Shown here: piece after piece, positions 13,970 through 29,001 of the stretch
How the letters are laid out: each line of letters begins with the position of its first letter
How positions within the stretch are numbered: position 1 is the first letter of the stretch
IMG/VR virus record: IMGVR_UViG_3300025120_000111
Location: 1 to 46,112 of that record
Direction: 5' to 3' (one strand)
DNA from: a virus
DNA length: 46,112 nucleotides
Notes under the pieces: model-generated
What the model was told of the DNA's origin: nothing
Database searches by the model: none
Seen by the model: the letters and a program-made list of their open reading frames with translations, nothing else
Position numbers and translations under genes: made by a program

Positions 13970-13987
13970 GTTATCGACCTTGATAAC
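13970..13987. promoter_or_regulatory. Palindromic operator-like site 1
   Basis: GTTATCGA-CC-TTGATAAC: one mismatch from the consensus GTTATCGA-NN-TCGATAAC. It lies between the strong early promoter and the start of gene 14014, in the expected untranslated leader, where a bound protein could block transcription. Confidence 0.65.
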
Positions 13988-14013
13988 AGTCCATAGTCAT
14001 AAAGGAATGAACA

Positions 14014-14661
14014 ATGACTGATTTAAAAACCATACTAAAACCACTAACTAAAACTGAGGGCGAAACTTTGGACACTGCAATTATTAGCGCGGTAAAAAAG
14101 GTATTATCCGTTGACGCGGCAAAGATAGCCAATGGAGAAATGAAAGCCTTATTTGAAAAACGTTTCAAAAGCCGTCTCAACTCCAATAGAAAATGGGAAC
14201 AATATTTCCTTAATTCACCATCTAAGAATTGTCTGGATAGTATTCACGTTGATGTTTATAATTGGGGACGCGATATGTTTTGTGAAAAGCTATCACCCGA
14301 TTATGATGCCATTCGTGAATATTGTGACAATGGTGATATAAAAGGAACGGCTAAAGCAACGTTCACTTGGTTAGATAAAAAAGAAACATACGCAAACGGT
14401 AAACTAACATTTACTGAACGCGATATTACCAAGCAGGCTTGGCAGTCACTTTGCAATACTGAATTTAGTAAGTACGGTAAAGAGATTATCACTGGCAAAA
14501 AATCTGCAACTGTCACTAAGACTGGCAAAGAAAAGTTTGAAGCAAAACTTTCAAGTGTCTTTCGTTCAGTAAATGACGAAGCTTTTGAGGGGAACGCGGT
14601 CGAATGTAACGCGCTTCTTAATCGCTTCCGTTCATTGGGCTTCAAGTTCAAGAGCGAGTAA
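14014..14661 (+). CDS. Unrecognised early protein, single-gene transcription unit
   Basis: 215 residues, AAAGGA before the ATG. Basic N-terminal third (KKVLSVDAAKIANGEMKALFEKRFKSRL), a middle with aromatic and acidic residues, and a basic end (LLNRFRSLGFKFKSE). No motif I recognise. It stands alone between a near-consensus promoter and a strong terminator, a layout typical of a first-expressed phage product such as a host-takeover protein or regulator. Its codons are more AT-rich than those of the flanking genes, hinting at separate acquisition. Confidence 0.8.
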   Translation: MTDLKTILKPLTKTEGETLDTAIISAVKKVLSVDAAKIANGEMKALFEKRFKSRLNSNRKWEQYFLNSPSKNCLDSIHVDVYNWGRDMFCEKLSPDYDAIREYCDNGDIKGTAKATFTWLDKKETYANGKLTFTERDITKQAWQSLCNTEFSKYGKEIITGKKSATVTKTGKEKFEAKLSSVFRSVNDEAFEGNAVECNALLNRFRSLGFKFKSE

Positions 14662-14668
14662 TACCTTC

Positions 14669-14695
14669 GGGGAGCTTCGGCTCCCCATTTTTTTT
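14669..14695 (+). terminator. Rho-independent terminator of gene 14014-14661
   Basis: Perfect 7-bp stem GGGGAGC / GCTCCCC around a TTCG tetraloop, followed by A and eight T. It begins 8 bases past the stop codon and closes the single-gene early unit. Confidence 0.93.
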
Positions 14696-14703
14696 GTGCC
14701 TAT

Positions 14704-14731
14704 TATACCAGTTATCGTTTTAGCAGTACGC
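14704..14731 (+). repeat. 28-bp direct repeat, copy 1
   Basis: Exact 28-base match to 14845-14872, beginning TATACCAGTTATCG and ending AGCAGTACGC. The internal GTTATCG is a half-site of the 18-bp palindrome. It lies just after the early terminator in noncoding DNA. Confidence 0.8.
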
Positions 14732-14804
14732 GTCTATGTATGACGTTGTAAAAGGCTAGCGCTGCTGCTGCACTTTCACTAAAGTTACCCATACATGTCT
14801 ACAT

Positions 14805-14822
14805 GTTATCGAGTACGATAAC
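14805..14822. promoter_or_regulatory. Palindromic operator-like site 2
   Basis: GTTATCGA-GT-ACGATAAC, one mismatch from consensus, in noncoding DNA between the two 28-bp direct repeats. ACATGTCT, the complement of the AGACATGT motif found upstream of the early promoters, is 4 bases away at 14793-14800. Confidence 0.6.
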
Positions 14823-14844
14823 ACCCCGGTTATATTAGTTATGC

Positions 14845-14872
14845 TATACCAGTTATCGTTTTAGCAGTACGC
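14845..14872 (+). repeat. 28-bp direct repeat, copy 2
   Basis: Second exact copy, 141 bases after the first. A 15-base part (TGCTATACCAGTTAT, 14842-14856) occurs again at 22084-22098 just after another palindrome copy. It directly precedes the first TGTAACC iteron. Confidence 0.8.
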
Positions 14873-14876
14873 ATAA

Positions 14877-15148
14877 TGTAACCACTATTGTAACCAAGAA
14901 CCCCCCTAATGTAACCACCGCGTAACTTGTAAGTGTATGTTATTATTATATTGTTACTTTGTTACCTATTTTTAATATATAGAGTACCATGAGACCTCTT
15001 TCGTCCGTGATCAGGCGATTACGCCTCAATTTAGATCTCTGAAATTACCCCCCATCTATCCCCTAAAAAACGGTTACAAAGTAACATTGTTTTATTATCA
15101 ATGACTTACATCAATCTCGGCGGTTACAATGTAGGTTACGTGGTTACA
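14877..15148. other. Candidate replication origin: inverted iterons around an AT-rich core
   Basis: Part of a ~600-base noncoding stretch (14662-15257). TGTAACC occurs at 14877, 14889 and 14910. Its complement GGTTACA occurs at 15072, 15122 and 15142, with GGTTAC also at 15134. Between them lies an AT-rich tract (about 14936-14982, TTATTATTATATTG ... TTTTTAATATAT). Opposed iterons flanking an easily melted core is a classic origin layout, and the site heads the replication arm. No initiator protein is identified, and the iterons could instead be regulator sites. Confidence 0.45.
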
Positions 15149-15187
15149 TTACACGTATTGATACGTATAGACATGTATTCATATCGC

Positions 15188-15216
15188 TTGACACAAGACA
15201 TCACGTATGGTATAGT
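15188..15216 (+). promoter_or_regulatory. Strong sigma70-type promoter of the early operon
   Basis: Consensus TTGACA at 15188-15193, 17-base spacer, TATAGT at 15211-15216. AGACATGT lies 11 bases upstream of the -35 (15169-15176), and CGTATTGATACG just before that. A palindrome copy is 66 bases downstream of the -10. It would drive the genes from 15258 onward. Confidence 0.82.
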
Positions 15217-15257
15217 CATTACCTAATCAGAAATTTTTCAACAAAAGGAACAAACAA

Positions 15258-15320
15258 ATGAACACACACAAATCACACAGCGTTATCGAGGTCGATAACA
15301 GAATGGAGGTCACACCATGA
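15258..15320 (+). CDS. 20-residue leader-type reading frame
   Basis: AAAGGA precedes ATG; the frame reads MNTHKSHSVIEVDNRMEVTP and its TGA overlaps the ATG of the zinc-ribbon gene. The palindrome (15282-15299) is inside, read as Val-Ile-Glu-Val-Asp-Asn. It is the first open frame after the promoter. It may be a leader peptide coupling translation to the next gene; real expression is unproven. Confidence 0.4.
   Translation: MNTHKSHSVIEVDNRMEVTP
15282..15299. promoter_or_regulatory. Palindromic operator-like site 3 (perfect)
   Basis: GTTATCGA-GG-TCGATAAC, a perfect copy, 66 bases downstream of the -10 box at 15211. It falls in codon phase 0 of the 20-residue frame. Confidence 0.7.
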
Positions 15321-15529
15321 AGAAGGCAATTTGCATAGATTGTGGCGCACACTATGACGTACGCAGACAGCTCCTAGGCTATCCTATATGCAAGCCATGT
15401 GGTGAGGAAGTCGCACGTCAAGTTGTCCGTTGTGTCGTACCTCTACCCAAGGGCAACTACACCCTTATCACTCGCAAAGAAGAATTGCGTAACCTCAACC
15501 AGAAGACAAGTTGTTATCAACCTCGATAA
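15317..15529 (+). CDS. Small zinc-ribbon protein
   Basis: 70 residues with two Cys-x2-Cys knuckles, CIDCG (6-10) and CKPCG (26-30), a classic zinc ribbon. GGAGGT lies 8 bases before the ATG. The last codons and stop are supplied by palindrome copy 4 (frame TGT-TAT-CAA-CCT-CGA-TAA), so the present C-terminus may have been set by arrival of that element. Likely binds nucleic acid or protein; target unknown. Confidence 0.75.
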   Translation: MKKAICIDCGAHYDVRRQLLGYPICKPCGEEVARQVVRCVVPLPKGNYTLITRKEELRNLNQKTSCYQPR

Positions 15530-15530
15530 C
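15513..15530. promoter_or_regulatory. Palindromic operator-like site 4
   Basis: GTTATCAA-CC-TCGATAAC, one mismatch from consensus. It covers the final codons and stop of the zinc-ribbon gene and lies 17 bases before the next ATG. Confidence 0.62.
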
Positions 15531-15546
15531 AGAAAGGAACAAACCA

Positions 15547-15609
15547 ATGGAAAAAACCACAGTTAAGATCCTTGTGATCAGACGCCATCGTAGGAGGATA
15601 TATCTATGA
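15547..15609 (+). CDS. Second 20-residue coupled reading frame
   Basis: AAAGGA precedes ATG; the frame encodes a very basic peptide ending RRHRRRIYL, and its TGA overlaps the ATG of the next gene. The AGGAGG site for that next gene is inside it. Its start context (AAAGGAACAAAC) matches that of the 20-residue frame at 15258. Possibly a coupling leader; low certainty. Confidence 0.38.
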   Translation: MEKTTVKILVIRRHRRRIYL

Positions 15610-15833
15610 GACCTATGGACTACAAAAAAATGGAGAAGTCGTTGAAGCGGCTGACCCAGTTTACCACCATGTGGTATGGTCATCGTTGCGACCATGATAG
15701 TTACGATCCAGATAGTTCAATACGCAAAGACGTAAAAGACGCTGAAATCTGTGTTGTGTGTGAAGCATGGGCGGTTATCGATGACATCAGACGAAGCATC
15801 GAAAGTGCAGGGGAGGATGGATACCTACAATGA
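15606..15833 (+). CDS. Small early protein, unrecognised
   Basis: 75 residues with a strong TAGGAGGA site. 'GHRCDHDSYDPDS' and 'AEICVVCEAWAVIDDIRR' give Cys/His pairs that could bind a metal, but no standard zinc finger spacing is clear. The stop overlaps the start of the phosphatase gene, so the two are co-translated. Confidence 0.68.
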   Translation: MRPMDYKKMEKSLKRLTQFTTMWYGHRCDHDSYDPDSSIRKDVKDAEICVVCEAWAVIDDIRRSIESAGEDGYLQ

Positions 15834-16282
15834 CTATGGATAAAGATGTAATCGTCTGCGACTTGGACGGAACACTGTGCGATATATCGCATCGGACACA
15901 TTGGGTACAAGTACCTTCGGGTGTACGTAAGAACTGGGATGCGTTCTTCAGTGAAGTTCCAAACGATACGCCTAATCAAGCGGTTCTTGATTTGCTTTAC
16001 ATGGTGAGCGAATACTCAAGAGTTATATTCTGTTCTGGCAGACCCGAGCGTTGCCGAACCGATACAGAAGCGTGGCTTAAACAACATCTCTTCACAAAGT
16101 ATGAACTTTGGATGCGGGAAGATGGAGACTTCCGCCGTGATGACATTGTTAAACAGGAGATCCTAGACAAATACATAGACAAGGATCGTGTGAAGTTCGT
16201 GTTGGATGACCGCAATCAAGTAGTTGATATGTGGAGACGTAATGGTCTCCATTGTTTTCAAGTAGCAGAAGGAGATTTCTAA
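15830..16282 (+). CDS. Polynucleotide 3'-phosphatase (T4 PseT C-terminal domain-like, HAD fold)
   Basis: 150 residues. HAD motifs: D11-L-D13-G-T (nucleophile and acid), CSGRPE (68-73, motif II), Lys108 in 'RRDDIVKQEI', and DDRNQVVDMWRRNG (126-139, motif IV). The end 'CFQVAEGDF' closely matches T4 Pnk/PseT. Only the phosphatase half is present; the N-terminal 5'-kinase of T4 Pnk is missing. It would remove 3'-phosphates from broken DNA or RNA ends so that they can be extended or ligated. No ligase is seen in the window. Confidence 0.85.
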   Translation: MTMDKDVIVCDLDGTLCDISHRTHWVQVPSGVRKNWDAFFSEVPNDTPNQAVLDLLYMVSEYSRVIFCSGRPERCRTDTEAWLKQHLFTKYELWMREDGDFRRDDIVKQEILDKYIDKDRVKFVLDDRNQVVDMWRRNGLHCFQVAEGDF

Positions 16283-16425
16283 TGACTGACGAAGAAGTAT
16301 TCGAAGAGTTTATGCGTTACGTAACGCCCGAACTTCCCGTAAGGGAGCAACCTGTGCCTGACGCTTGTTTAGAAGCTGATCGCACATTCTTAAATAACTA
16401 CCAAGGTAAAGGAGAACAATTATGA
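16282..16425 (+). CDS. 47-residue acidic small protein
   Basis: ATG overlaps the phosphatase stop (TAATG) with AAGGAG upstream, and its TGA overlaps the ATG of the next gene. Sequence begins MTDEEVFEEFMRYVTPELPV; acidic, helical N-terminus. Both-ends overlap in an otherwise compact operon supports a real gene. Function unknown. Confidence 0.6.
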   Translation: MTDEEVFEEFMRYVTPELPVREQPVPDACLEADRTFLNNYQGKGEQL

Positions 16426-17357
16426 ACATGGTAGATACAACCCTAAATGTTATCGACATCGATAACTACCAATCACTAGCAACCTCAACTTGTCTAGTAG
16501 AGTTGAATATCAGTCAACCACCGATCACGCGAGAGGACAAAGAAGCTACGCAGAAAATTGCAGAACTGTACAAGCTTGCCTTACACGATGTTAACGGTAG
16601 GGAGATCAAGCCAGCGGCTGTACACAAGAAGCTATACGAAGGTTGGAAAGAGTATGCAAAGCTGAAAAGCTTTATTGGCTTTGTTCGGCGTGAGCAAGAT
16701 AGACTTACAGTAGCTTGGTCTAACTCTGGTCTGCGTATGACAACGACACTGGGCTATCCAGACTATATCAAAACCATGACAGGTTACCAGAATGATATGT
16801 TCGACCAGCTTGATAACGATATGAGACAGACATATCCAGATGCAATGCAGGAAATGGAGCGTATCTTCGGCGACATGCACGACCCCTCTTTGTATTATGA
16901 CTGGGATACCTTTCGGGCTAAGTATCGTTTTTCTATCCGCACATGGGGTACGCCAGACGTCAACGACATACGTGTCTCTCTACCTCAACAGGCTTTGGAA
17001 CATATGAAGGCTGATATGCAGAGTGCGATACAAGAAAGCGCGTTGAAAGCAAATCAGGAAATGTGGACGCGTACGCACAAAATACTGGAGCGTCTGTCCA
17101 AAGGTCTGGGCTACAAGGAGGACGGTAAGCTACAGACGTTCAAGGGCACGTTTGTACCTGCGGCTCAAGAACTAGTAACACAGCTACGCACGTTGAACAT
17201 CACCAATGATGCCAAGATGGTCGAAGCCGCAAACAAGTTGGAGTACGCCTTTAAGGGTAGAACCAATGAGTCGTTACGCGAAGAAGGCTATGAGCGTGAT
17301 GAAACTAAAAGCGTGGTCGATGATGTCCTCGCTTCAATCCCCAACCTCGACATTTAG
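16422..17357 (+). CDS. DUF3150-like protein, partner of MoxR/VWA module
   Basis: 311 residues, mainly helical. After a variable start carrying the palindrome-encoded VIDIDN (residues 10-15), 'CLVELNISQPPITREDKEA' resembles the opening of DUF3150 proteins, and the central 'YPDAMQEMERIFGDMHDPSLYYDWDTFRAKYRFSI' and the helical end fit. DUF3150 proteins are typically found next to a MoxR ATPase and a VWA/metallopeptidase protein, as here. Assignment is by pattern and context. Confidence 0.6.
   Translation: MNMVDTTLNVIDIDNYQSLATSTCLVELNISQPPITREDKEATQKIAELYKLALHDVNGREIKPAAVHKKLYEGWKEYAKLKSFIGFVRREQDRLTVAWSNSGLRMTTTLGYPDYIKTMTGYQNDMFDQLDNDMRQTYPDAMQEMERIFGDMHDPSLYYDWDTFRAKYRFSIRTWGTPDVNDIRVSLPQQALEHMKADMQSAIQESALKANQEMWTRTHKILERLSKGLGYKEDGKLQTFKGTFVPAAQELVTQLRTLNITNDAKMVEAANKLEYAFKGRTNESLREEGYERDETKSVVDDVLASIPNLDI
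16449..16466. promoter_or_regulatory. Palindromic operator-like site 5 (perfect)
   Basis: GTTATCGA-CA-TCGATAAC, perfect, 27 bases into the DUF3150-like gene and read in phase 0 as Val-Ile-Asp-Ile-Asp-Asn. Same central bases as the copy at 26918. Confidence 0.7.
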
Positions 17358-17362
17358 TCGGG

Positions 17363-17380
17363 GTTATCGAACTCGATAAC
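17363..17380. promoter_or_regulatory. Palindromic operator-like site 6 (perfect)
   Basis: GTTATCGA-AC-TCGATAAC, perfect, in the 50-base gap between the DUF3150-like and MoxR genes, 27 bases before the MoxR ATG. Confidence 0.72.
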
Positions 17381-17407
17381 AAACCATAAAACACAGGAGA
17401 CCATCTA

Positions 17408-18532
17408 ATGGTAAATTTCAATAACATTGCATCCTCTATGTATGCACAAGACCTCGACAACTGCATGAACTCTATATCGTTGTTGGGTGACAAGATCACC
17501 TTCGTACTGCAAGGTGATATGGGTAACGGCAAATCAGCCACACTTAAAACGCTCGGAGAGAAGCACCAGAAGCATCGCATATTCTATTGCGACTGTACCA
17601 CCAAAGACGTGGGCGATCTCATGCTACCGATGTTTTCAGAACTAGATCAGAATGGTCAGTTCGTCAGGTTCGTGACTAACGAAGAACTTGGTATCCACAT
17701 TGACGGCCCAGTAATCATCATGGTCGATGAGTTTGGTAAGGCAAACAAGTCTGTGCAGAACGCATTACTCTGCCTGATGTACGAGCGTAAGATGGGTAAC
17801 CGTCATCTACACGAAGACAGTATTGTGTATGCAACGACTAACCTCGGAGCAGAAGGTGTTGGTGATCTACTACCACCTCATACACGGAACCGTTTCTGTG
17901 TGGTTACAGTCAAGAAGTGGACTAACGAGCAGTGGATGGAATGGGCTATCAACAATCAGATTGAGCCACAGGTCATCTTGTTTGCGAAAGAAAACCCAGA
18001 GATCTTTCACTCGTTCACTGAAGTAGAGAACCCCGAAGACAACCAGTACATCTACCACCCAAAGGTAAATCGACCCGCATTCGTTACACCGCGATCACTC
18101 GAAACCGCGTCACATATCTGCAAGATGCGTGATCAACTTGGTACAGATACTACAACGGCATTGCTTATAGGTTGTATCGGTGAACATGCGGCTAGACAAC
18201 TCAATGCTCAGTTTACTCTGTCTGATGATCTTGTTCCGTTGGATGAGATCAAGAACAATCCAAAGTCTGCCAAGATACCATCAACGGCGGCGGCTCAATG
18301 TCTGATGATGTATCGCACATTGTCTAACATTGACCGTTCGTGGATTGATGCGTGGATGGACTACATGGATAGGATACCTGCGAATATGCAAGGTATGTTT
18401 GTGAACGGTGTGTACTCAGACAAGTTTGACAAGAAGCGTCAACAGGGTGTGATGAACAACAAGAAGTTCACTGACTTCACAATGGCAAACGGTCACCTCA
18501 ATGCGGCTGATAAGAAATCGGCAGGTGTATGA
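17408..18532 (+). CDS. MoxR-type AAA+ ATPase
   Basis: 374 residues. Walker A GDMGNGKS (36-43), Walker B VIIMVDE (102-108), sensor 1 YATTN (141-145) and an arginine-finger region HTRNRF (158-163), in MoxR/RavA-like order. MoxR ATPases work with VWA proteins as chaperones or metal-insertion machines. The VWA partner is encoded 260 bases downstream, the DUF3150-like partner just upstream. AGGAG precedes the start. Confidence 0.85.
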   Translation: MVNFNNIASSMYAQDLDNCMNSISLLGDKITFVLQGDMGNGKSATLKTLGEKHQKHRIFYCDCTTKDVGDLMLPMFSELDQNGQFVRFVTNEELGIHIDGPVIIMVDEFGKANKSVQNALLCLMYERKMGNRHLHEDSIVYATTNLGAEGVGDLLPPHTRNRFCVVTVKKWTNEQWMEWAINNQIEPQVILFAKENPEIFHSFTEVENPEDNQYIYHPKVNRPAFVTPRSLETASHICKMRDQLGTDTTTALLIGCIGEHAARQLNAQFTLSDDLVPLDEIKNNPKSAKIPSTAAAQCLMMYRTLSNIDRSWIDAWMDYMDRIPANMQGMFVNGVYSDKFDKKRQQGVMNNKKFTDFTMANGHLNAADKKSAGV

Positions 18533-18618
18533 TGACAGGTGAAGATAAGCTAATCGGATTGCTTGCAGTCTTAATGATAATGGGGTGGATACTCGGTGTC
18601 CACTTCCAAATATTCTAA
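18529..18618 (+). CDS. 29-residue single-span membrane peptide
   Basis: ATGATG overlaps the MoxR stop; the frame encodes MMTGEDKLIGLLAVLMIMGW followed by a short tail ending HFQIF. Residues 8-24 are a single hydrophobic span. It sits between the ATPase and VWA genes of one operon. Small size keeps confidence modest. Confidence 0.5.
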   Translation: MMTGEDKLIGLLAVLMIMGWILGVHFQIF

Positions 18619-18654
18619 CGGATTAAAATCCGTATTTAAATCCAAGGAGATACT

Positions 18655-18780
18655 ATGAACCAGAAGTTTGAAGAGGCTTTCAAAGTTATGAAAGACCTAT
18701 ACATGTTCATGCACGAAGACAAAGAAGCTTTGTATTTTAAACACACAATAACTCGTGAATATATACGAGTACAAAAGTAA
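18655..18780 (+). CDS. 41-residue small protein
   Basis: AAGGAG 8 bases before ATG; begins MNQKFEEAFKVMKDLYMFMH, a single charged amphipathic helix, with a basic end. A small 6-bp hairpin (ACGGAT/ATCCGT) lies just upstream. Unrecognised; supported by a good ribosome binding site and tight fit between neighbours. Confidence 0.55.
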   Translation: MNQKFEEAFKVMKDLYMFMHEDKEALYFKHTITREYIRVQK

Positions 18781-18792
18781 GGAGAATAATTT

Positions 18793-20076
18793 ATGTCGTA
18801 TTCAGTACTAAATGGACAAGGACTACTGTTCGAACAACGGATGGATAAGAACGTGAGGGTTATACTAAAAGCCGCGCCCGAACTATCGCCTATACTCGCG
18901 GTGGGTGATCGTAAGATTGATGATGCTGATCCTTCTATGACTGCTTGCACTGATGGTCGCAACGAATGGTATGGTCGTGCTTACTGTGAACCCAAAGGCG
19001 ATGCACAAGTACGGTTCATCATCATACATGAGAACTATCACAAGCAAACGAAAGATATGTTTACGTGGGCGCACCTATGGAAGATAGACAGCGAACTGGC
19101 AAACACGGCTATGGACTACCGCCACAACTTTGACATCTGGCACTTGTACAGTAACAAGTCTGTGTATGGTGATCTAATCGACTGGGTCGATGGCGCACTG
19201 TATGATCCTAGGTATGATATTACGTGGGATACCGCTAAGATATTCTGGGAGTTGTACAAGGACAAACAGGACGGTAAGCCACCACGCTCACCTATTAATC
19301 CTAAGACAGGACTACCATCTGTTATCGACCCCGATAACAAAGGCAATGGTCAGGGTACACCACAAGGGTTTCGAGACAAGCATGACTTTGAGAAAGCCAA
19401 AGAGATGTCTGCCGAGGAAGCCAAAGCCAATGCCAAGGAGATAGATGAAGCCATACGTCAGGGGGCTATCGTTGCAGGTAAAGTAGGAACAGGTGATGCA
19501 AGACACCTCAATGAACTACTCAAGCCAAAGATAAACTTTCGTGAAGAGATACGTGAGTTTGTTACGGTCAACTGTTCGGGTAAAGACTACGGTACTTACA
19601 ACAGGCTTAATCGTAGATACTTGCAGTACGGTGTCGTTATGCCATCTACTGTCAGCGAAACGATTGAGAGCCTTATGTGTGCCAACGACATGTCTGGTTC
19701 TGTCGGTGAGGCAGAGCAGAAAGTTGTGATCGGGGCAACAGCCAAGGCCGCAATGGACGTTACACCGGAGGAACTGCACGTTGTCTATTGGGATACAAAG
19801 GTGTCTGGACATGAACGCTATGAGAGGGACGAACTGGACACAGTAGAGGATACTACAAAACCTAAAGGCGGTGGCGGTACTGATCCTCGTTGTCTATCAC
19901 CCTTTCTACGTGAACATCACATCAAGCCAAACGCGTCTATCGTTATTACCGATGGTCATGTTAGTGACAGGTGGGGTGAGTGGGATCATCCAGTGTTGTG
20001 GGTCATCGTGGACAACGCGGGTTGTGTACCTCCCGTAGGTAAACACATCCACGTAAAGAGTTCAGAGTTACGATAG
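18793..20076 (+). CDS. Metallopeptidase-VWA protein (DUF2201-like), MoxR partner
   Basis: 427 residues in two domains. N-terminal: zincin-like motif H79-E-N-Y-H83 in 'FIIIHENYHKQ' followed by 'ELANTAMDYRHN', as in the putative metallopeptidase domain of DUF2201 proteins. C-terminal VWA: MIDAS residues D299-x-S301-x-S303 (NDMSGS), Thr363 in a Gly-rich loop, and Asp387 in 'IVITDGH'. A hydrophilic linker about 165-225 holds palindrome copy 7 (VIDPDN, 177-182). VWA plus MoxR pairs remodel or activate target proteins; a phage target is not known. Confidence 0.82.
   Translation: MSYSVLNGQGLLFEQRMDKNVRVILKAAPELSPILAVGDRKIDDADPSMTACTDGRNEWYGRAYCEPKGDAQVRFIIIHENYHKQTKDMFTWAHLWKIDSELANTAMDYRHNFDIWHLYSNKSVYGDLIDWVDGALYDPRYDITWDTAKIFWELYKDKQDGKPPRSPINPKTGLPSVIDPDNKGNGQGTPQGFRDKHDFEKAKEMSAEEAKANAKEIDEAIRQGAIVAGKVGTGDARHLNELLKPKINFREEIREFVTVNCSGKDYGTYNRLNRRYLQYGVVMPSTVSETIESLMCANDMSGSVGEAEQKVVIGATAKAAMDVTPEELHVVYWDTKVSGHERYERDELDTVEDTTKPKGGGGTDPRCLSPFLREHHIKPNASIVITDGHVSDRWGEWDHPVLWVIVDNAGCVPPVGKHIHVKSSELR
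19321..19338. promoter_or_regulatory. Palindromic operator-like site 7
   Basis: GTTATCGA-CC-CCGATAAC, one mismatch, in the middle of the VWA gene and in phase 0 (VIDPDN). Far from any gene start, which argues against a simple promoter operator at this copy. Confidence 0.6.
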
Positions 20077-20282
20077 TGGAGTTCTGGACTTTACTAACTA
20101 TAGGTTACTCAGTGATGGAACACCAAATGCAGTTTAGTATTTGGTTTCCTAGCGAGGACGCCTGTTGGAGCGTACTGTTAGATAGCGGTGCGCTCTACGA
20201 TCAGATTAATGCAACTGAAGGTCATTGTGATGTAAGCGAGGTCGCATCACATATCGTACGGCCTAAACTCAGACCTTGGTAA
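20076..20282 (+). CDS. Small conserved phage protein
   Basis: 68 residues from a GTG start that overlaps the VWA stop (TAGTG). 'EFWTLLTIGYSVMEHQMQFSIWFPSEDACW' followed by 'ASHIVRPKLRPW' matches a small protein I recall from marine phages, always of unknown role. One hydrophobic stretch at the N-terminus is too short and polar for a sure membrane span. Confidence 0.68.
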   Translation: MEFWTLLTIGYSVMEHQMQFSIWFPSEDACWSVLLDSGALYDQINATEGHCDVSEVASHIVRPKLRPW

Positions 20283-20293
20283 GGAACAAACAA

Positions 20294-20548
20294 ATGCCAA
20301 GATATGTAGTAACAGCCACTATGGACGTGGGTTACCTAGCTGTTATCGAAGCCGATAACGAAGAGGAAGCCTACAAGATTGCTGATAAACCAACCAAAGA
20401 ACAGGCAGAGACGTTTCACTGGATGCAAACAGATAATGGTCACGACTGGACTTTGGAAAGTACTTGGGAAGTATGTGACGTATATCACAACAGCTTACTA
20501 AAGAAATATCATTATGCACCTGATGCATTAAGACTTGTAAAGGAATGA
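20294..20548 (+). CDS. Small early protein, unrecognised
   Basis: 84 residues from ATG at 20294 (MPRYVVTATMDVGY), chosen because AAGGAACAAAC, the same start context as genes 15258 and 15547, precedes it. 'ADNEEEAYKIADKPTKEQ' follows a beta-hairpin-like start, a shape common in small phage stress-type proteins. Palindrome copy 8 is in phase 0 at residues 17-22 (VIEADN). Confidence 0.7.
   Translation: MPRYVVTATMDVGYLAVIEADNEEEAYKIADKPTKEQAETFHWMQTDNGHDWTLESTWEVCDVYHNSLLKKYHYAPDALRLVKE
20342..20359. promoter_or_regulatory. Palindromic operator-like site 8
   Basis: GTTATCGA-AG-CCGATAAC, one mismatch, 48 bases into the gene starting at 20294, read as Val-Ile-Glu-Ala-Asp-Asn. Confidence 0.62.
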
Positions 20549-20551
20549 ACA

Positions 20552-21463
20552 ATGACAATACTTAAAGAATTATACAAACCTGTCTGTGACTTGGACTTGA
20601 GTTACGAGAAGCATCATGATGGTGAACTAAACCAGAGTATCGAGACCTCTAACTTCCGTAAGGCCGTTGAGAAATCACTAGACTGTAAGACATGTTGGCG
20701 TGACAGTGGTAGTGCGTGGGTATATCGTGAGGATGATAGCTACACACTAGGCTACATTGGTCACAGTGATAGGTCATACTCTGGCGAAGGACTTGACTAT
20801 AAATACAATATTGTATCCAAGAATATAGTAAACAACAAGTATTCCACTGGAACCGCTAACCACCATATGTCTTCTGCATTGCACATGGACAAGGCTGTAA
20901 AGAATGCTCAAAGATATCTGCGCCCGTGGTCACCTGTCGAGCATATTGACATAAGTTTCAGCGGGTTCAGACGAAACTGGAGCGATGTGCAGTATCAAGC
21001 CGATAACGCATACAGCGGTAAACTAAATGAGATGACTAGAGATATCTCGGCTAGGGGTGATACGTTCAAGGAGTTGGGTCATCTACTAAAGAGTGGGTAC
21101 ATGTTTCTGTATCCTTCTGTACGTGTCATGATCGAGGAGATACATGAAGCACTGGCAGAGATGAACGAGACTAAGAAGCGTCCAAAGATACACAAGTTTA
21201 TTTACATCCGTGAATACTTTGGTGAAGAACAGGCGGCTAAGTTTCACGTCAATGCTGATGACTATTGGTTTAATCTACAACAGTATCAGGCAGATCATAA
21301 ACATGTACAGTGGATCAAGTCTGACGATCTGACCGAAGATGAGAAGCGTAAGATATCGTCATTGGCGTTCGGTGATAACGGCTTCTACGTTGATGGCGTT
21401 GGCTTCAAGGCCGCAAGTAACTGTTACTATGTTGTACCAGAAGAAGGGAGGTGTGTAGTATGA
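20552..21463 (+). CDS. Unrecognised early protein with shared C-terminal module
   Basis: 303 residues, AAAGGA before ATG. No catalytic motif recognised. The last ~55 residues (WIKSDDLTEDEKRKISSLAF, then DNGFYVDGVGFK) share the plan 'DL ... K-S-x-L-x-F ... IDGVG' with the small protein at 21811-22053, so this protein may be a fusion with that module. The middle has two Trp/Tyr-rich segments. It is followed by a coupled gene (ATGA). Confidence 0.72.
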   Translation: MTILKELYKPVCDLDLSYEKHHDGELNQSIETSNFRKAVEKSLDCKTCWRDSGSAWVYREDDSYTLGYIGHSDRSYSGEGLDYKYNIVSKNIVNNKYSTGTANHHMSSALHMDKAVKNAQRYLRPWSPVEHIDISFSGFRRNWSDVQYQADNAYSGKLNEMTRDISARGDTFKELGHLLKSGYMFLYPSVRVMIEEIHEALAEMNETKKRPKIHKFIYIREYFGEEQAAKFHVNADDYWFNLQQYQADHKHVQWIKSDDLTEDEKRKISSLAFGDNGFYVDGVGFKAASNCYYVVPEEGRCVV

Positions 21464-21666
21464 AGATCGAGAAAAACATACCGTTCCCAAAGGGTAGAGG
21501 AAAATGGGTAGAAGTAGTGCATAAGATGGAGGTTGGAGATAGTGTTCTTGTTAAAACCACCTCCGAAGCCCTCTCTCTAGGGTTAGCCATGAAACGAGTA
21601 AACAAAGGTAAAGTGGTCACTGCAAAACAAGCTTGTGGCAACATAAGAGTTTGGAGAAAAACATAA
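21460..21666 (+). CDS. Small 'VGDSV...RVWR' family protein, paralog 1
   Basis: 68 residues from ATG at 21460 (GGGAGG upstream, ATGA overlap with the previous gene). Pattern: basic start, 'KMEVGDSVLV', an Ala/Leu helix, then a C-terminal 'IRVWRK'. Two more genes here share it (22891-23256 and 32534-32761). This is a widespread small phage family of unknown function (possibly DUF7303, from memory). A hairpin ends the unit. Confidence 0.72.
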   Translation: MKIEKNIPFPKGRGKWVEVVHKMEVGDSVLVKTTSEALSLGLAMKRVNKGKVVTAKQACGNIRVWRKT

Positions 21667-21676
21667 GTAAAAGAAT

Positions 21677-21712
21677 GAGAGGTGCAGTAGACCCATACCA
21701 ACTGCACCTCTC
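21677..21712 (+). terminator. Long hairpin after gene 21460-21666
   Basis: Perfect 12-bp stem GAGAGGTGCAGT / ACTGCACCTCTC with a 12-base loop, 10 bases after the stop. The following TCTTGTGT is a weak T tract, so it may be a leaky terminator or an mRNA-stabilising end. Confidence 0.6.
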
Positions 21713-21770
21713 TCTTGTGTAGTACAAGCCCTTAATCTGCAAAAAAAATCGGGATCACTACGATTTATTT

Positions 21771-21801
21771 ATAGGTTGTAATTAAGTATCAGTCAACCTA
21801 T
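21771..21801. repeat. 8-bp inverted repeat in intergenic DNA
   Basis: ATAGGTTG (21771-21778) and CAACCTAT (21794-21801), 15-base loop, in the noncoding stretch 21713-21810 ahead of the next gene. No T tract. Possible regulator site. Confidence 0.4.
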
Positions 21802-21810
21802 ATTTTACGT

Positions 21811-22053
21811 ATGGATAATTTATATTACGTATCAATACGTACAGACACGTCTAATATAAAAATTACAAGTATTGATAAGTTTTCTCTTGAAAAAGATATT
21901 TCAGGGGTATATATGTCGGAAACTGATTTGCCCGATTGGGTAAGGAGAAAACTGTCGGCACTCTCATTCTGTGATTGGGGTAAAAGATCGATAGGCTCCA
22001 TAGACGGTGTTGGGAAGCGCATTAATGAACACAACTTTTGGATATACAAGTAA
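21811..22053 (+). CDS. Small early protein, paralogous to the end of 20552-21463
   Basis: 80 residues from ATG 21811, or 46 from ATG 21913, which has AGGGG 5 bases upstream. The C-terminal part 'MSETDLPDWVRRKLSALSF' and 'IDGVGKRINEHNFWIY' matches a common short marine phage module and resembles the last residues of gene 20552. If the internal start is used, the first 100 bases are regulatory and carry AGACACGT and a weak TTGATA/GATATT pair at 21872-21900. Function unknown. Confidence 0.65.
   Translation: MDNLYYVSIRTDTSNIKITSIDKFSLEKDISGVYMSETDLPDWVRRKLSALSFCDWGKRSIGSIDGVGKRINEHNFWIYK
21841..21853 (+). repeat. 13-bp repeat ACAGACACGTCTA, copy 3
   Basis: Identical to 13601-13613 (inside terS) and 13891-13903 (upstream of the first early promoter). 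Here it follows CGTATCAATACG, and the pair resembles 15154-15178, CGTATTGATACG followed by AGACATGT. Confidence 0.55.
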
Positions 22054-22062
22054 ACACGTTCT

Positions 22063-22080
22063 GTTATCGTGGTCGATAGC
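22063..22080. promoter_or_regulatory. Palindromic operator-like site 9 (degenerate)
   Basis: GTTATCGT-GG-TCGATAGC, two mismatches, just after the stop of gene 21811. It is directly followed by the 15-base TGCTATACCAGTTAT shared with the 28-bp repeats. Part of the 158-base gap 22054-22211, which also has a small palindrome CACTGACAGTG (22158-22168). Confidence 0.5.
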
Positions 22081-22211
22081 AAGTGCTATACCAGTTATTT
22101 TGAATAGCCCCAGTCAGCGGTGGGCGGGTTTTTTGCAAAGGTTGTTTTTCCCGAAAACACTGACAGTGCGGAGAGTCGAATTGGTTTGTTCATTATCGAG
22201 GAGACCGCACA

Positions 22212-22889
22212 ATGAATAGTCTACGTAAACAGCTTGAAGAAGAAGAACGAGGGTTACGTAAGATCCGTACTAATAGGCGGCATAGGAGACCCCCAAATGC
22301 AGGTAAGAAATTCCAACAAGTCTTTTACGTATTAGATAAAGATCTAGAAAATTGGGATGACATAGATCTGGATGAAGTGGACGAGTTTACTTCGTCAGCA
22401 ATAGTAGACAAGAACTTTGATAGTATTGGTGAAGGAGAGATAGGCAATATTGTTGCCTCTCTGAAGTCTGGCTTAGATGTGTCTGTGTGTGACAATGCTT
22501 TCACGATACCGGCGAACGCACCTATCGCAGATGTAGAGGTCTCTGTAGGTAAAAGACGTAACTACGAGAAGAAGTTAGTCAACGTCATATCTGCCGCTCA
22601 TGCCAAAGGTGTGTCCGAGTGGCAGAAGCGAAGACCGTTCGTAATTTTACAGAAGCGTTTGAACAGGGATAAGCAGTACGCGTTCCGTCAATTCCCCGAC
22701 AAAGATAAAAGGAGAGCAACAGGTATGAAGTATGCACTTGTTATGAGCAATGTACCTTTAGGTAAAGAAGGTCACACGATATTGTATTTTCACACATTAA
22801 AAGCCGCTAGGGAAAAGATGCGCGAGTTTATAGCAGACTATGGGTACGAACAGAAACACTTAGAAACGATGAAAGTAGTGGGGGATTAG
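22212..22889 (+). CDS. Unrecognised protein, basic N-terminus
   Basis: 225 residues. Residues 1-30 are highly charged (RKQLEEEERGLRKIRTNRRHRRPP) and the rest is mixed alpha/beta with 'NAFTIPANAPIADVEVSVGKRRNYEKKLVNVISAAH' and 'FHTLKAAREKMREFIADYGYE'. No motif recognised. GAGGAG lies before the ATG. First gene of the replication block; separated from the next by one base. Confidence 0.72.
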   Translation: MNSLRKQLEEEERGLRKIRTNRRHRRPPNAGKKFQQVFYVLDKDLENWDDIDLDEVDEFTSSAIVDKNFDSIGEGEIGNIVASLKSGLDVSVCDNAFTIPANAPIADVEVSVGKRRNYEKKLVNVISAAHAKGVSEWQKRRPFVILQKRLNRDKQYAFRQFPDKDKRRATGMKYALVMSNVPLGKEGHTILYFHTLKAAREKMREFIADYGYEQKHLETMKVVGD

Positions 22890-22890
22890 A

Positions 22891-23256
22891 ATGGGCGTAA
22901 GGTATATTGATAAAAATGGTGAGGTAAGATCGATGGCTATTCCCTATTCAAACGCCATCTACGAAATACTGAGGAAACAGAATAGAATTTTATATGAAGT
23001 AACTAGTGAGATACCCATGCGTAAAATAAAAGGAAGATGGGCTGATATAGTTGAGAAGATGTCTGTGGGAGATAGCGTACTGGTTGCTTCGCGGGCCGAG
23101 GCTCAAGGATTACAACACGCCATACTAAGAAGGTACTATGCCAAACTCATCGACCATGATGATTATTGGTGTGAAAGGAATAGACGGTGGGAGACTGGTA
23201 AGCTTTCAAGGTCTAGAAAAGAAGGCGAAGGTTTTAGAGTGTGGAGATTGCAATGA
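22891..23256 (+). CDS. Small 'VGDSV...RVWR' family protein, paralog 2
   Basis: 121 residues, the longest of three paralogs. N-terminal ~45 residues are unique; then 'GRWADIVEKMSVGDSVLVASRAEAQGLQHAI' and a C-terminal 'GEGFRVWRLQ'. Its TGA overlaps the ATG of the nuclease gene. Confidence 0.7.
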   Translation: MGVRYIDKNGEVRSMAIPYSNAIYEILRKQNRILYEVTSEIPMRKIKGRWADIVEKMSVGDSVLVASRAEAQGLQHAILRRYYAKLIDHDDYWCERNRRWETGKLSRSRKEGEGFRVWRLQ

Positions 23257-23585
23257 CACCAGAAGCAAAAGTAAAACGTAGGGTGACAAACAAGTTAAAA
23301 GAAATGGGCGCGTACTATTTCTTTCCGATGACAGGTGGATATGGACGTAGCGGTGTACCCGATATTATTGGATGCTACAGAGGTAGGTTCTTTGGTATCG
23401 AAACAAAAGCGGGAAATAATAAACCCACAGCGTTACAGATGAAGAACCTGAAAGATATTGATAGTCAGGGAGGGATAGCTCTGGTTATAAATGAAGATAA
23501 TCTATCCAGTATAACTGAACTATTGAGGGAAGACGATGCAGAACTTAACGAAAGAAGAGGAAGCAGAACTACAGTTTCTACGTAA
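23253..23585 (+). CDS. VRR-NUC domain nuclease
   Basis: 110 residues from ATG at 23253 (GGAG upstream, ATGA overlap). VRR-NUC/PD-(D/E)xK core: 'GGYGRSGVPDIIGCYRGRFFGIETKAG', with Asp37 and Glu50-x-Lys52 as the metal and catalytic residues. Stand-alone VRR-NUC proteins are structure-specific nucleases able to resolve branched DNA; in phages they likely act in recombination or replication. Confidence 0.87.
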   Translation: MTPEAKVKRRVTNKLKEMGAYYFFPMTGGYGRSGVPDIIGCYRGRFFGIETKAGNNKPTALQMKNLKDIDSQGGIALVINEDNLSSITELLREDDAELNERRGSRTTVST

Positions 23586-23724
23586 CGAGGCTAGTAAATA
23601 TGAAGTAGAAAATAATAGGTTGGATAGTCATCCAAACGTCAAGAACGATCTAGCAAGAGCAAGACGTGAATTGAAAGAATATACAAAAAAACTGCAAGAA
23701 GCAGGAAGACATATATACTGTTAA
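23536..23724 (+). CDS. Small coiled-coil protein
   Basis: 62 residues, nearly all helix (LTKEEEAELQFLRNEASKYEVENN ... RARRELKEYTKKLQEAGRH). Overlaps the last 50 bases of the nuclease in another frame; GAGGGA precedes its ATG. A small oligomeric accessory protein is likely; function unknown. Confidence 0.6.
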   Translation: MQNLTKEEEAELQFLRNEASKYEVENNRLDSHPNVKNDLARARRELKEYTKKLQEAGRHIYC

Positions 23725-23736
23725 TGGGAGACAAGT

Positions 23737-24168
23737 ATGGGTAATAAACAAGAGAAAGCGTGGAAGTATTTATTATTAAACAAAAGCGCGACAGCTAGGG
23801 AACTAGCAGATGCCGTAGGTATATCTTATGGGTATGCACTGAGTATTAAGAAACGAATTGGAACACCACAAGAGACATTGGATGCGCCAAATAAATTAAC
23901 TAGGTCCGATGTACTGGATACAGCAAAGAATTTAGTTAACGGAGATAGAGCCGAACAGCACGGTGATGCTACAAACAACTTTGTACTCATGGCGGCATAT
24001 TGGAACGCGCACCTTGGACTTATAGATTTTATATCTGTTGATGATGTACCGATCATGTTGGCCTTGATGAAAGTAGCGAGGTTGCACGGCGATGGCACAA
24101 AGAACATAGACAACTACGTAGATGTCTGTGGGTATATGTCTTTGGGCGGTGAGATTTCCCAACTGTGA
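23737..24168 (+). CDS. HTH domain fused to DUF6378-like domain
   Basis: 143 residues. Residues ~8-42 (AWKYLLLNKSATARELADAVGISYGYALSI) form a helix-turn-helix. Residues 55-143 (SDVLDTAKNLVNGDRAEQHGD ... MLALMKVARLHGDGT ... YVDVCGYMSLGGEI) match DUF6378, a phage domain common beside replication genes. The HTH makes it a candidate reader of the 18-bp palindrome. Its stop overlaps the polymerase start. Confidence 0.72.
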   Translation: MGNKQEKAWKYLLLNKSATARELADAVGISYGYALSIKKRIGTPQETLDAPNKLTRSDVLDTAKNLVNGDRAEQHGDATNNFVLMAAYWNAHLGLIDFISVDDVPIMLALMKVARLHGDGTKNIDNYVDVCGYMSLGGEISQL

Positions 24169-25988
24169 ATTTTGTAACTCTAGACTTCGAAACTTATTAC
24201 GACAGAGAATACTCGTTACGCAAGTTAACGACTGAAGAATACGTGCGTGATAAAAGGTTCGAGGTCATAGGGCTTGCAATAAAAATAGGTGACAGACCTA
24301 CGATGTGGGTAGAGGGTGCTGCACGAGTCAAGAGTTTCTTATCAGAAGCAGACTTCTCTGGGTGCGCCATCCTCTGTCACAACACGATGTTTGACGGTGC
24401 GATATTGGACTGGCTATATGATGTACGTCCAAAAGTTTGGCTTGATACCCTGTGTATGGCGAGAGCATTACATGGTGTAGATCAAAGTGTATCGCTAAAA
24501 AACGTAGCCGAAAGGTATGGTGTTGGAGTCAAAGGTACAGAAATACAGAACACAATGGGTAAACATATAGATGACTTCACTACCAAGGAGTTATCTCGAT
24601 TTGCTGATTATGCCGTAAATGATGTCGATCTGGCATATGACATATTCAAGTTGATGTTACCCAACTTTCCCCAACAAGAATTAGAACTAATAGACGTTAC
24701 ACTAAGAATGTATATAGAGCCAACGCTACGTCTTGATATGGCTGGGCTACAAGAACACCTTGTAGAGACACGTTCACGTAAGGAGGCGTTACTGGGAGAA
24801 GCAGGAGTAGCGAAAGAGGAGTTGATGTCCAACCCCAAGTTTGCCGCATTGTTAGTAAGTCTTGGTGTAGAACCGCCCATGAAAGTAAGCCCAACCACAG
24901 GTAAGGCAACATTTGCATTTGCAAAATCAGATGAAGGGTTCAAGGCGTTAGCAGAACATGAGAGTGATAAAGTTCAATCTTTAGTTGCCGCCCGACTGGG
25001 TACTAAAAGCACTTTGGAAGAAACACGTACAGAGAGGTTTATCTCTATTGCAAAGCGTGGGCTGCTCCCTGTACCCGTCCGTTACTATGCCGCGCATACA
25101 GGCAGATGGGGTGGAGATGACAAGATAAATCTACAGAATTTACCAAGTCGTGGTATCAATGGTAAGAAACTAAAGAAGAGTATCCTAGCGCCAGTCGGTC
25201 ATACTCTTATAGATGCAGACAGTTCTCAGATTGAAGCGCGAGTGTTAGCTTGGCTGTCCGAGCAGGACGACTTGGTTGACCAGTTCGCCAACGGTGAAGA
25301 TGTCTACATAAAGATGGCTAGTTCCATTTACGGCGTCCCCGAAGACCAAGTTACCAAAGACCAAAGATTTGTAGGGAAGACCACGATCTTGGGAGCGGGG
25401 TACGGTATGGGATACCTGAAGTTCGGAGCGCAACTCAAGACCTTTGGGTATGAAGTACCCGAGGCGGAGGCGAAGCGGATTATATCCGTATACAGAGAGA
25501 CGTACCCATACATCGGAGATTTGTGGCAAGCGGCAAACAGGTGCATAAAAGAAATGCACAGTGGCAATTTGTTCAGGTTTGGTCGGTCTGGAGTGCTTGA
25601 CGTTAACGTACCTTCCCGGGCAATCGTGTTGCCATCACAGCTAGAGATGTCTTACACTGATCTAGATGCTACTACGGAAGGCGGGCGAACTGAGTACCAT
25701 TATAAAACACGCCAAGGTCGTACTAGAATATACGGTGGCAAGGTAGTTGAGAATGTATGCCAAGCCATTGCTCGTTGTATTATAGGGCATCAAATGTTAC
25801 AAATAGCTAAAAAATATAGAGTAGTATTAACCGTCCATGATAGTATCGTATGTTGCGTACCTAACCAGCTCGCAGCCGAAGCACGGGGATACATAGAGAG
25901 ATGTATGCGTACGACACCTGACTGGGCCGCAGGTCTACCTATCGATTGCGAAAGCGGTATAGGTAAGAGTTATGGAGATTGTGAATAA
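24165..25988 (+). CDS. polA: DNA polymerase, family A, with 3'-5' exonuclease
   Basis: 607 residues. Exonuclease: D7-x-E9 (Exo I), N73 with D77 (Exo II), Y149 with D153 (Exo III). Polymerase: motif A D352-SSQIEAR; O-helix R401-x3-K405-x3-L409-x3-Y413-G; motif C VHDS (H558-D559). No 5'-3' exonuclease domain. The residue equal to E. coli Phe762 is Leu409; published work on viral PolA ties Leu at this site to slower, more accurate enzymes and proposes a link to temperate phages. Core replicase of this phage. Confidence 0.95.
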   Translation: MNFVTLDFETYYDREYSLRKLTTEEYVRDKRFEVIGLAIKIGDRPTMWVEGAARVKSFLSEADFSGCAILCHNTMFDGAILDWLYDVRPKVWLDTLCMARALHGVDQSVSLKNVAERYGVGVKGTEIQNTMGKHIDDFTTKELSRFADYAVNDVDLAYDIFKLMLPNFPQQELELIDVTLRMYIEPTLRLDMAGLQEHLVETRSRKEALLGEAGVAKEELMSNPKFAALLVSLGVEPPMKVSPTTGKATFAFAKSDEGFKALAEHESDKVQSLVAARLGTKSTLEETRTERFISIAKRGLLPVPVRYYAAHTGRWGGDDKINLQNLPSRGINGKKLKKSILAPVGHTLIDADSSQIEARVLAWLSEQDDLVDQFANGEDVYIKMASSIYGVPEDQVTKDQRFVGKTTILGAGYGMGYLKFGAQLKTFGYEVPEAEAKRIISVYRETYPYIGDLWQAANRCIKEMHSGNLFRFGRSGVLDVNVPSRAIVLPSQLEMSYTDLDATTEGGRTEYHYKTRQGRTRIYGGKVVENVCQAIARCIIGHQMLQIAKKYRVVLTVHDSIVCCVPNQLAAEARGYIERCMRTTPDWAAGLPIDCESGIGKSYGDCE

Positions 25989-26653
25989 TGGCATCTTGGT
26001 CGTTTAGTAGATTAAAGTCTTTCGAGACTTGCCCCAAACAGTTTTATCATGTGACTGTATTGAAGGAGCATCCTGTCGTTGAAACAGATGCAATGTTGTA
26101 TGGAACCGCAATGCACAAAGCGGCAGAAGATTACATTGGAGAAGACAAGCCACTCCCAGAGAAGTTTACGTACGTTAAAGGAACACTGGACGAGCTGCTG
26201 GGGATTAGAGGTAGTAAGTTAACTGAGCAAAAGTTAGGACTTACCAAAGACCTGAAACCTTGTGGGTTCAGAGACAAAGATGTCTGGTTCCGTGGTATCG
26301 TAGATCTTGCGATTATAGACACACTGGCAGAGCGAGCATGGATTGTAGATTATAAGACAGGCAAGTCTACAAAGTATGCTGATAAAGGACAGCTTGAGCT
26401 TATGGCTCTAAGCATCTTTAAAAAATTTCCAGATATAAAACATATCAATGCCGCGCTATTATTTGTCGTTGCTAACGAAATGATAGAGGCCGAGTATAAA
26501 ATAGAGAACAGTTTTAGTTTGTGGGGGAAATGGTTAAAGAAGTATGCTAGAATGGAAAAAGCATATGAGACAGATGTATGGAACCCGAGACCTTCAGGGC
26601 TGTGTTACCATCACTGCCCCGTACTAGAATGTGTCCACAACGGAAGGAACTAA
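25988..26653 (+). CDS. Cas4/RecB-like PD-(D/E)xK exonuclease
   Basis: 221 residues. Motifs: 'HKAAEDYI' (43-50), Asp106 in 'GIVDLAII', Asp121-Tyr-Lys123 in 'IVDYKTGKS', and Gln135 (motif QxxxY-like). Cys15 plus Cys206, Cys210 and Cys215 match the Fe-S cluster cysteines of AddB/Cas4-type nucleases. Probably processes DNA ends during replication or recombination. Starts one base before the polymerase stop ends. Confidence 0.85.
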   Translation: MASWSFSRLKSFETCPKQFYHVTVLKEHPVVETDAMLYGTAMHKAAEDYIGEDKPLPEKFTYVKGTLDELLGIRGSKLTEQKLGLTKDLKPCGFRDKDVWFRGIVDLAIIDTLAERAWIVDYKTGKSTKYADKGQLELMALSIFKKFPDIKHINAALLFVVANEMIEAEYKIENSFSLWGKWLKKYARMEKAYETDVWNPRPSGLCYHHCPVLECVHNGRN

Positions 26654-26655
26654 TC

Positions 26656-26916
26656 ATGCCTTACAAAAATAAACCACGACCATATAAGAAAGAGTACAAA
26701 CAACAGAAAGCCAGAGGTGAGCATGAGGACCGTATGGAACGTCAACGTGCGAGGAGAAGTCTGGATAAGAAAAAAATAAATCGTAAAGGTAAGGATATTG
26801 CGCATAAGAAAGCACTAAGTAGGGGCGGCTCGAATAAAGATGGTTACACTCTGCAAAGCCCGAAGAAAAATAGAGCCGCAGGTGGGCGTATGAGTAAAAG
26901 GCCAAAGAAGCGTTGA
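26656..26916 (+). CDS. Small basic protein with HNH-like motif
   Basis: 86 residues from ATG at 26656 (AAGGAAC upstream); an upstream in-frame ATG overlaps the nuclease gene and was rejected. Very basic. 'KDIAHKKALSRGGSNKDGYTLQSPKKNRAAGG' resembles the D-x-x-H ... N ... NR core of HNH proteins, but lacks zinc cysteines and half of the fold, so nuclease activity is doubtful. Alternative: a virion-packaged DNA-binding protein. Confidence 0.62.
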   Translation: MPYKNKPRPYKKEYKQQKARGEHEDRMERQRARRSLDKKKINRKGKDIAHKKALSRGGSNKDGYTLQSPKKNRAAGGRMSKRPKKR

Positions 26917-26917
26917 T

Positions 26918-26935
26918 GTTATCGACATCGATAAC
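26918..26935. promoter_or_regulatory. Palindromic operator-like site 10 (perfect)
   Basis: GTTATCGA-CA-TCGATAAC, perfect, one base after the upstream stop and 12 bases before the helicase start, where binding could hinder expression of the helicase and later genes. Confidence 0.7.
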
Positions 26936-28801: not shown

Positions 28802-29001
28802 CAGAAAATAAATATGTTGAGATTGCCAAGATATCAGAGTACTTTGGAGTCTCAAATGCAACTGTGCGAGGATGGGTGAAGCATAATAGAATACCCCGTG
28901 ATTCGTACATAAAAGTCCCTAGCGAGAGTCACCCGACTCTTCGTTATAACCTAGCGTCCATAGAGGCGCATTTTACACAAGGAGAACAAGATGGCGAATG
29001 A
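28798..29001 (+). CDS. Small HTH DNA-binding protein (excisionase/MerR-like)
   Basis: 67 residues. 'EIAKISEYFGVSNATVRGWVKHNRIPRDSYIKV' is a MerR/Xis-type helix-turn-helix plus wing. Single-domain proteins of this kind act as excisionases or small repressors. It overlaps the ssDNA-binding protein gene by 11 bases. It is a candidate regulator for the dispersed palindrome; with no integrase visible, an excisionase role is less likely. Confidence 0.72.
   Translation: MTENKYVEIAKISEYFGVSNATVRGWVKHNRIPRDSYIKVPSESHPTLRYNLASIEAHFTQGEQDGE

Follow-up and report, generated by a model that had tools for sequence, protein, structure and literature searches.

Ten dispersed palindromes in the early arm of a marine phage contig switch sequence in concert among relatives, together with a small winged helix-turn-helix gene

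The early arm and its palindromes

The DNA analysed here, called the window below, is the whole 46,112 nt of the IMG/VR virus contig IMGVR_UViG_3300025120_000111, in which ten copies of one 18-bp palindrome lie scattered among the early and replication genes. The leftward late genes encode terminase, portal, major head, tail, GroES-like, endolysin and ejection proteins, and the rightward early/replication arm (14.0–32.6 kb) encodes an ATPase, an exonuclease, a DNA polymerase, an SNF2-type helicase, a Gp2.5-like single-stranded DNA-binding protein and a primase-helicase. The record is an incomplete genome; since one relative, G017, runs 16.7 kb past the left end of the window, the latter does not cover the whole genome. 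A DNA search of the entire window against named phages gave no match, and the relatives of the helicase in genome collections are distant only (24–54% identity) and sit on contigs of metagenome-assembled genomes of mixed taxonomy.

A pattern search finds the palindrome, GTTATCGA-NN-TCGATAAC (type A in the following), exactly ten times between 13970 and 26935. Four copies are perfect, five carry one mismatch and one carries two, which reproduces all the coordinates and mismatch counts given by an earlier sequence-only reading of this DNA. At three mismatches or fewer chance would yield 0.17 copies (standard deviation 0.40), and none of the shuffled sequences attained ten. When a symmetric weight matrix made from the ten sites was run over the 46-kb window, the sites scored between 24.8 and 31.5 and the next best position scored 10.4, a gap that leaves no tail of weak sites. 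Positions 1–6 of the half-site, GTTATC, show one deviating base among 20 halves. The pattern search found no type-A palindrome in the minus-strand late arms of the window, so that the reported confinement of the set to the early/replication arm holds, and the density of the motif in that arm is matched neither by the late genes nor by shuffled DNA.

Of the promoter-like sequences in the arm, the best two each have a palindrome ~30–65 bp downstream. The first of these sequences, P1 (13911..13938, plus strand; TTGACT-16-TATAAT, 11 of 12 consensus matches, joint best in 13.6–33 kb), precedes gene 1 (14014..14661, plus strand), which encodes a 215-aa protein of an orphan family and has a promoter, an operator and a terminator of its own, the last being an intrinsic-terminator-like hairpin at 14669..14694 on the plus strand. 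In the leader of this gene, ~30 bp past the -10 element of P1, lies the palindrome at 13970..13987 (one mismatch), presumably an autoregulatory operator. The second, P2 (15188..15216, plus strand; TTGACA-17-TATAGT, 11 of 12 consensus matches, with TG before the -10), is the promoter-like sequence of the main early operon, and the perfect palindrome at 15282..15299 lies ~65 bp past its -10, within a leader open reading frame of 20 codons. Between the gene-1 terminator and P2, that is upstream of P2, is the copy at 14805..14822 (one mismatch). The remaining sites are distributed along the operon. At gene borders we find 15513..15530 (one mismatch; end of gene 15317–15529), 17363..17380 (perfect; intergenic, ahead of the ATPase gene), 22063..22080 (two mismatches; just past gene 21811–22053) and 26918..26935 (perfect; ahead of the helicase gene, where it opens the segment in which the winged protein discussed below is also encoded). 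The perfect copy at 16449..16466 covers codons 10–15 of gene 16422–17357, and two copies with one mismatch each are intragenic: 19321..19338, in codons 177–182 of gene 18793–20076, and 20342..20359, within gene 20276–20548, where it encodes VIEADN.

The earlier statement that the copies cluster just before or just inside gene starts is thus true of 13970, 15282, 15513, 16449, 17363 and 26918, but not of 19321 and 20342, which lie deep in genes, nor of 14805 in the terminator–P2 interval or of 22063, which is 132 bp away from the next clear start. Similarly, a half-site claimed for the first promoter spacer is indeed present, as GTTATCGG at 13918 in P1, but scores far under the real sites. Near the internal palindromes a promoter scan found no consensus promoter, which favours an elongation or organising role of the internal sites over local promoter control, with the reservation that the scan yields no more promoter-like matches than it does in shuffled DNA.

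Two features of the surrounding DNA may be recorded here. In the gene-1 leader (13962–13993) the palindrome is framed by inverted arms, GGACTG/CAGTCC, which have other but still complementary sequences in relatives (GACTTGTTA/TAACAAGTC, GAGCTGTT/AACAGCTC). Further along, the region 14704–15163 contains two identical 28-bp repeats (at 14704 and 14845) and several TGTAACC/GGTTACA units, some of them inverted; these repeats are conserved in relatives, lie near the GC-skew minimum and could belong to a replication origin.

Palindrome codes among relatives

Marine contigs gathered by their helicase served as relatives, and were searched first for gapped palindromes of any sequence and then by pattern. 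Three codes were found, all within one 18-bp frame, GTTA-N10-TAAC. Type A is carried by the window and by G001, G002, G003, G005, G021 and G022. Type B, GTTATTAT-NN-ATAATAAC, is carried by G004, G006–G008, G011–G013, G017–G020 and L124, close relatives whose flanking DNA is ~80–98% identical to that of the window. Type C, GTTAGTR-NNNN-YACTAAC, belongs to the more distant G009, whose early arm has eight sites, one of them weak, within 4.9 kb. In aligned and similar flanks type B stands in the place of type A at 15513, 17363, 19321, 22063 and 26918, and the window and G007, for example, are ~95% identical in their late and replication genes while using different codes. The scan of related genomes that the sequence-only reading had proposed therefore shows conserved positions with the sequence exchanged for another palindrome, and the fact that all sites of the set switch together and in place supports its suggestion of an operator or stoperator regulon.

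The exchange can be followed site by site. At 17363 the window has GTTATCGAACTCGATAAC and five type-B contigs have GTTATTATCAATAATAAC, in flanks 85–91% identical, and type C has GTTAGTGAAAACACTAAC; at 15513 type B shows GTTATTATCGATAATAAC and type C GTTAGTAAAATGACTAAC. Ahead of the helicase gene, the equivalent of 26918 is GTTATTATTGATAATAAC in type B (G004, G006–G008 and G011–G013) and GTTAGTCGATTGACTAAC in L140/L141. The 22063 site is of type A, with a better match, in G003 and G005, and of type B in G004, G007, G012, G013, G017 and G018. Type-B relatives hold GTTATTATCGATAATAAC at the leader position equivalent to 13970, and in G007, G013, G017, G018 and G020 the interval of the 14805 site contains type-B palindromes. 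No counterpart of the 15282 site was found in type-B relatives; the 16449 site is missing from its place in type B, being shifted to a place ~100 bp upstream of the start of the same gene, and type C has it likewise within the N-terminal codons.

Contigs are uniform in site type save for type-A-like leftovers in three type-B genomes, G007, G017 and G018. In all three the 20342 site is still of type A (with flanks 97–99% identical to the window in G007), and G007 and G017 have one further type-A-like site (G007 14369). The leftovers (G007 13200 and 14369, G017, G018 19177) lie in mosaic segments. In G003 (L084), an insertion of ~1 kb behind the ATPase gene, absent from the window, bears a perfect type-A palindrome of its own.

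The additional 16.7 kb of late DNA of G017 contains no type-B site that we could find; no palindromes were found in KPP25 or in relatives with a ~55% identical helicase, and an exact motif scan of viral contigs gave, beyond the relatives, mostly single matches with no second strong copy per contig. Dispersed palindromes were not seen either in distant relatives whose sole helix-turn-helix (HTH) gene near the place considered below is of another class.

Is it the encoded protein or the DNA that is kept at these sites? At 19321 the residues specified by the palindrome are VIDPDN in type A; type-B contigs have VINGNN, VITNNN or DIIDNN there, and type C has VSGDTN. Because the encoded residues change to fit each palindrome, the DNA sequence is what is kept, and the comparison indicates that the palindromes are under selection at the DNA level. 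The membership of the 20342 site is doubtful, since both the VIEADN coding and the type-A sequence persist in the three type-B genomes; coding constraint or recent exchange may account for this persistence.

Candidate regulators and rival explanations

Every gene of the window was compared with its relatives for a split by site type. Two genes split sharply, gene 1 and the gene at 28798..29001 (plus strand) for a 67-aa winged HTH protein; outside the left early cassette (14–22.2 kb) only the latter does so, and its co-switching with site type, together with its winged HTH model, makes it the best candidate regulator. The protein, HTH 28798, is 80–100% identical within type A, 61–64% identical versus type B and 50% versus type C, and the genes adjoining it are 86–99% identical across all A and B contigs; in nucleotide terms the gene is an island of 55–69% identity inside DNA that is 88–100% identical. 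Fixed differences fall where the predicted recognition helix begins (NA or NT in type A, PS in type B, IQ in type C) and in the wing, which in type B is three or four residues shorter than in type A. The sequence-only reading had named two HTH proteins as possible binders, of which only this one tracks the site type; the other, the weak HTH match at 23737, is 94–97% identical across types A and B and was rejected as the regulator.

The backbone of these contigs, taken as 7.2 kb around the HTH gene with the gene itself left out, gives a tree in which the window groups with the type-B contigs G006, G007 and G013, and the type-A contigs G003 and G005 group with the type-B contigs G004 and G012. 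A single type-A clade is rejected for this backbone (approximately unbiased test, p-AU 0.0006). The HTH tree unites all A contigs and separates all B contigs, and one of the groupings of the backbone is rejected for it (p-AU 0.003). Both the HTH gene and the site at 26918 are outside the cassette, and their match is not explained by linkage. The structural model of the protein has the order beta-HTH-wing-helix with a predicted local distance difference test score (pLDDT) of 79.8; its best PDB match is Xis 4j2n of phage Pukovnik (probability 1.00, E 0.01), and it also resembles BldC, RacA, RdfS, AspA and a P2 DNA-binding protein. In curated families the protein stays under the cut-offs, with 20.9 versus 27 bits for HTH_17 and 15.7 versus 28.8 for excisionase. 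As a partner for a Xis, no tyrosine or serine integrase (PF00589, PF00239) was found in the window or in ten relatives, all of them records of incomplete genomes; attachment sites were not sought.

We consider it probable that all ten palindromes are bound by a single sequence-specific regulator that the phage itself encodes, the foremost candidate being the HTH protein at 28798–29001 in the form of a dimer. Direct binding, dimerisation, repression rather than activation and an effect on elongation are inferred, along the following lines. A dimer would rest on two 8-bp half-sites, with one helical turn (10 bp) from centre to centre, and thus on one face of the DNA. The leader operators would be 13970, just downstream of P1, and 15282, just downstream of P2, and the internal ones among the remaining sites, which are spread along the extended early transcription unit, mostly at gene borders, could serve as roadblocks. 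Produced from the middle of the unit, the HTH protein would build up until it occupies the operators in both leaders as well as the sites further in, damping initiation at P1 and P2 and hindering elongation, so that early transcription, that of its own gene included, would be turned off.

Several points weigh against this explanation. All the evidence is comparative, with few independent switches sampled and several contigs that are fragments; the co-segregation is based on eight contigs, among which the backbone tree implies two switches or more, and two of the contigs, G006 and G007, are near-identical in the HTH region compared. The helicase-upstream site was not found in type C (G009), and no relative of HTH 28798 or of gene 1 was detected in RHph_TM3_14A, a Rhizobium phage with comparable palindromes that is described below. 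Repression, activation and DNA organisation would, moreover, look alike by sequence. Finally, gene 1 tracks the site type too, and is hence a possible binder.

Could gene 1 then be an orphan DNA-binding repressor that controls itself via its leader site, with the HTH protein as partner or co-regulator? The type split is sharpest in gene 1 among all genes (73–95% identity within type A, 26–32% versus type B), and its place as the first of the early genes, with its own promoter, leader site and terminator, fits autoregulation. However, the association is partly one of linkage, because the 14–22.2 kb cassette travels whole with the type, drifting to ~70–80% identity versus B and mostly 80–94% within A; gene 1 and the nine cassette sites may move as one block. 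No DNA-binding fold is apparent either, the model having a pLDDT of 59 and no PDB match by sequence or fold; gene 1 has no relative in Pfam, PHROG, NCBIfam, PDB or named phages, and the first genes of type C and of RHph_TM3_14A have no similarity to it. We consider it unlikely that gene 1 is the binder, and keep it as a second candidate regulator or partner. A function in RNA appears improbable. The palindromes would then form hairpins in early mRNAs, as targets of a translation regulator or as processing or stability elements, for which one may cite that several sites lie 12–35 nt upstream of start codons, that the outer stem of the gene-1 leader is kept in relatives despite differing sequences, and that position 7 of type C varies between A-T and G-C on both sides in 5/7 sites. 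Yet sites also occur deep in genes and between terminator and promoter, their 18-bp length is invariant, six-pair A/T-rich stems with mismatches would be weak, and the covarying gene has a predicted DNA-binding fold.

We likewise give little credence to the idea that the sites organise or mark phage DNA for replication, packaging, segregation or anchoring, like RacA or ParB sites, instead of controlling genes. The HTH model does resemble RacA and AspA among others, and the sites adjoin the repeat-rich region near the GC-skew minimum, a possible origin; but no ParA-type ATPase (PF13614) was found in the window or in four relatives, again incomplete genomes, a site lies behind each of the two best promoters, and the internal sites are at gene borders and not clustered at the repeats. 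A spreading palindrome, which the sequence-only reading had offered as its other option, or a neutral repeat without function, might account for many copies within one arm; it can practically be dismissed, being refuted by the relatives, in which positions are the same between genomes during the concerted switch of sequence and codons change to keep the palindrome.

Three other genes of the window have unusual matches or settings. The 150-aa protein encoded at 15830–16282 has its best match in the C-terminal half only of a phage polynucleotide kinase family; the gene at 28373–28801, in the replication operon, has a minor head protein as its best PHROG match; and the GroES-like co-chaperonin gene (8420–8800) lies amid head genes.

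Known systems and biological meaning

Cluster A mycobacteriophages of the L5 type carry many copies of one site, scattered through early leaders and between the genes of the replication arm, and among them site consensus and repressor differ together (PMC6550527, PMC9283540). The phages studied here are alike in having many copies in promoter leaders and within early transcription units, and in a site consensus that differs between relatives along with the candidate regulator. Stoperators, however, measure 13 bp, lack symmetry and all point the same way with respect to transcription (PMC9283540), and their repressor is a monomeric protein of 183 residues with a second DNA-binding domain, found in temperate phages with integrase or parABS (PMC6550527, PMC9283540), whereas the sites of the window are symmetric 18-bp palindromes, the candidate is a 67-aa winged HTH protein, and no integrase or ParA was found in this incomplete genome record. 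Among the PDB hits for HTH 28798 or gene 1 there was no match to L5 gp71 or to the TipsytheTRex repressor. Literal membership of the L5 type, the comparison drawn by the sequence-only reading, is unsupported, given the symmetry of the sites and the failure to find any lysogeny gene.

In the Streptomyces phage phiC31 a single repressor binds a number of near-identical palindromes, most of them between genes of the early region. That phage is temperate; it has a serine integrase and its repressor is large, and neither feature was found in the window. In predicted fold and size HTH 28798 is close to Pukovnik Xis, P2 Cox and the bacterial proteins BldC and RacA; but Xis and Cox go with an integrase, and none was found in the window, and BldC binds direct repeats. 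A further parallel for the sites is Rhizobium phage RHph_TM3_14A (L131, MN988472), in which GTTACCT-NNNN-AGGTAAC occurs 25 times in 50 kb, each copy having no more than one mismatch, where none is expected. It shares with the window syntenic replication genes and 18-bp palindromes with GTTA...TAAC ends, but its sites extend over early and late arms and are often intragenic. Because this phage has 25 sites in the same GTTA...TAAC frame, the phenomenon may be older and wider than the marine group.

These results raise a question: Why does a phage without recognisable lysogeny genes diversify its operator specificity? A tentative answer is that, in these apparently lytic and integrase-less marine phages, codes made of regulator plus operators are swapped as whole sets between near-identical phages, with an effect resembling immunity: A co-infecting phage of the same code would be shut off, and one of another code would not. 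Near-identical genomes seldom reveal a regulator and its roughly ten scattered sites being rewired together, and the naturally occurring versions of a very small HTH protein, each paired with sites of its own type, would provide material for reading specificity.

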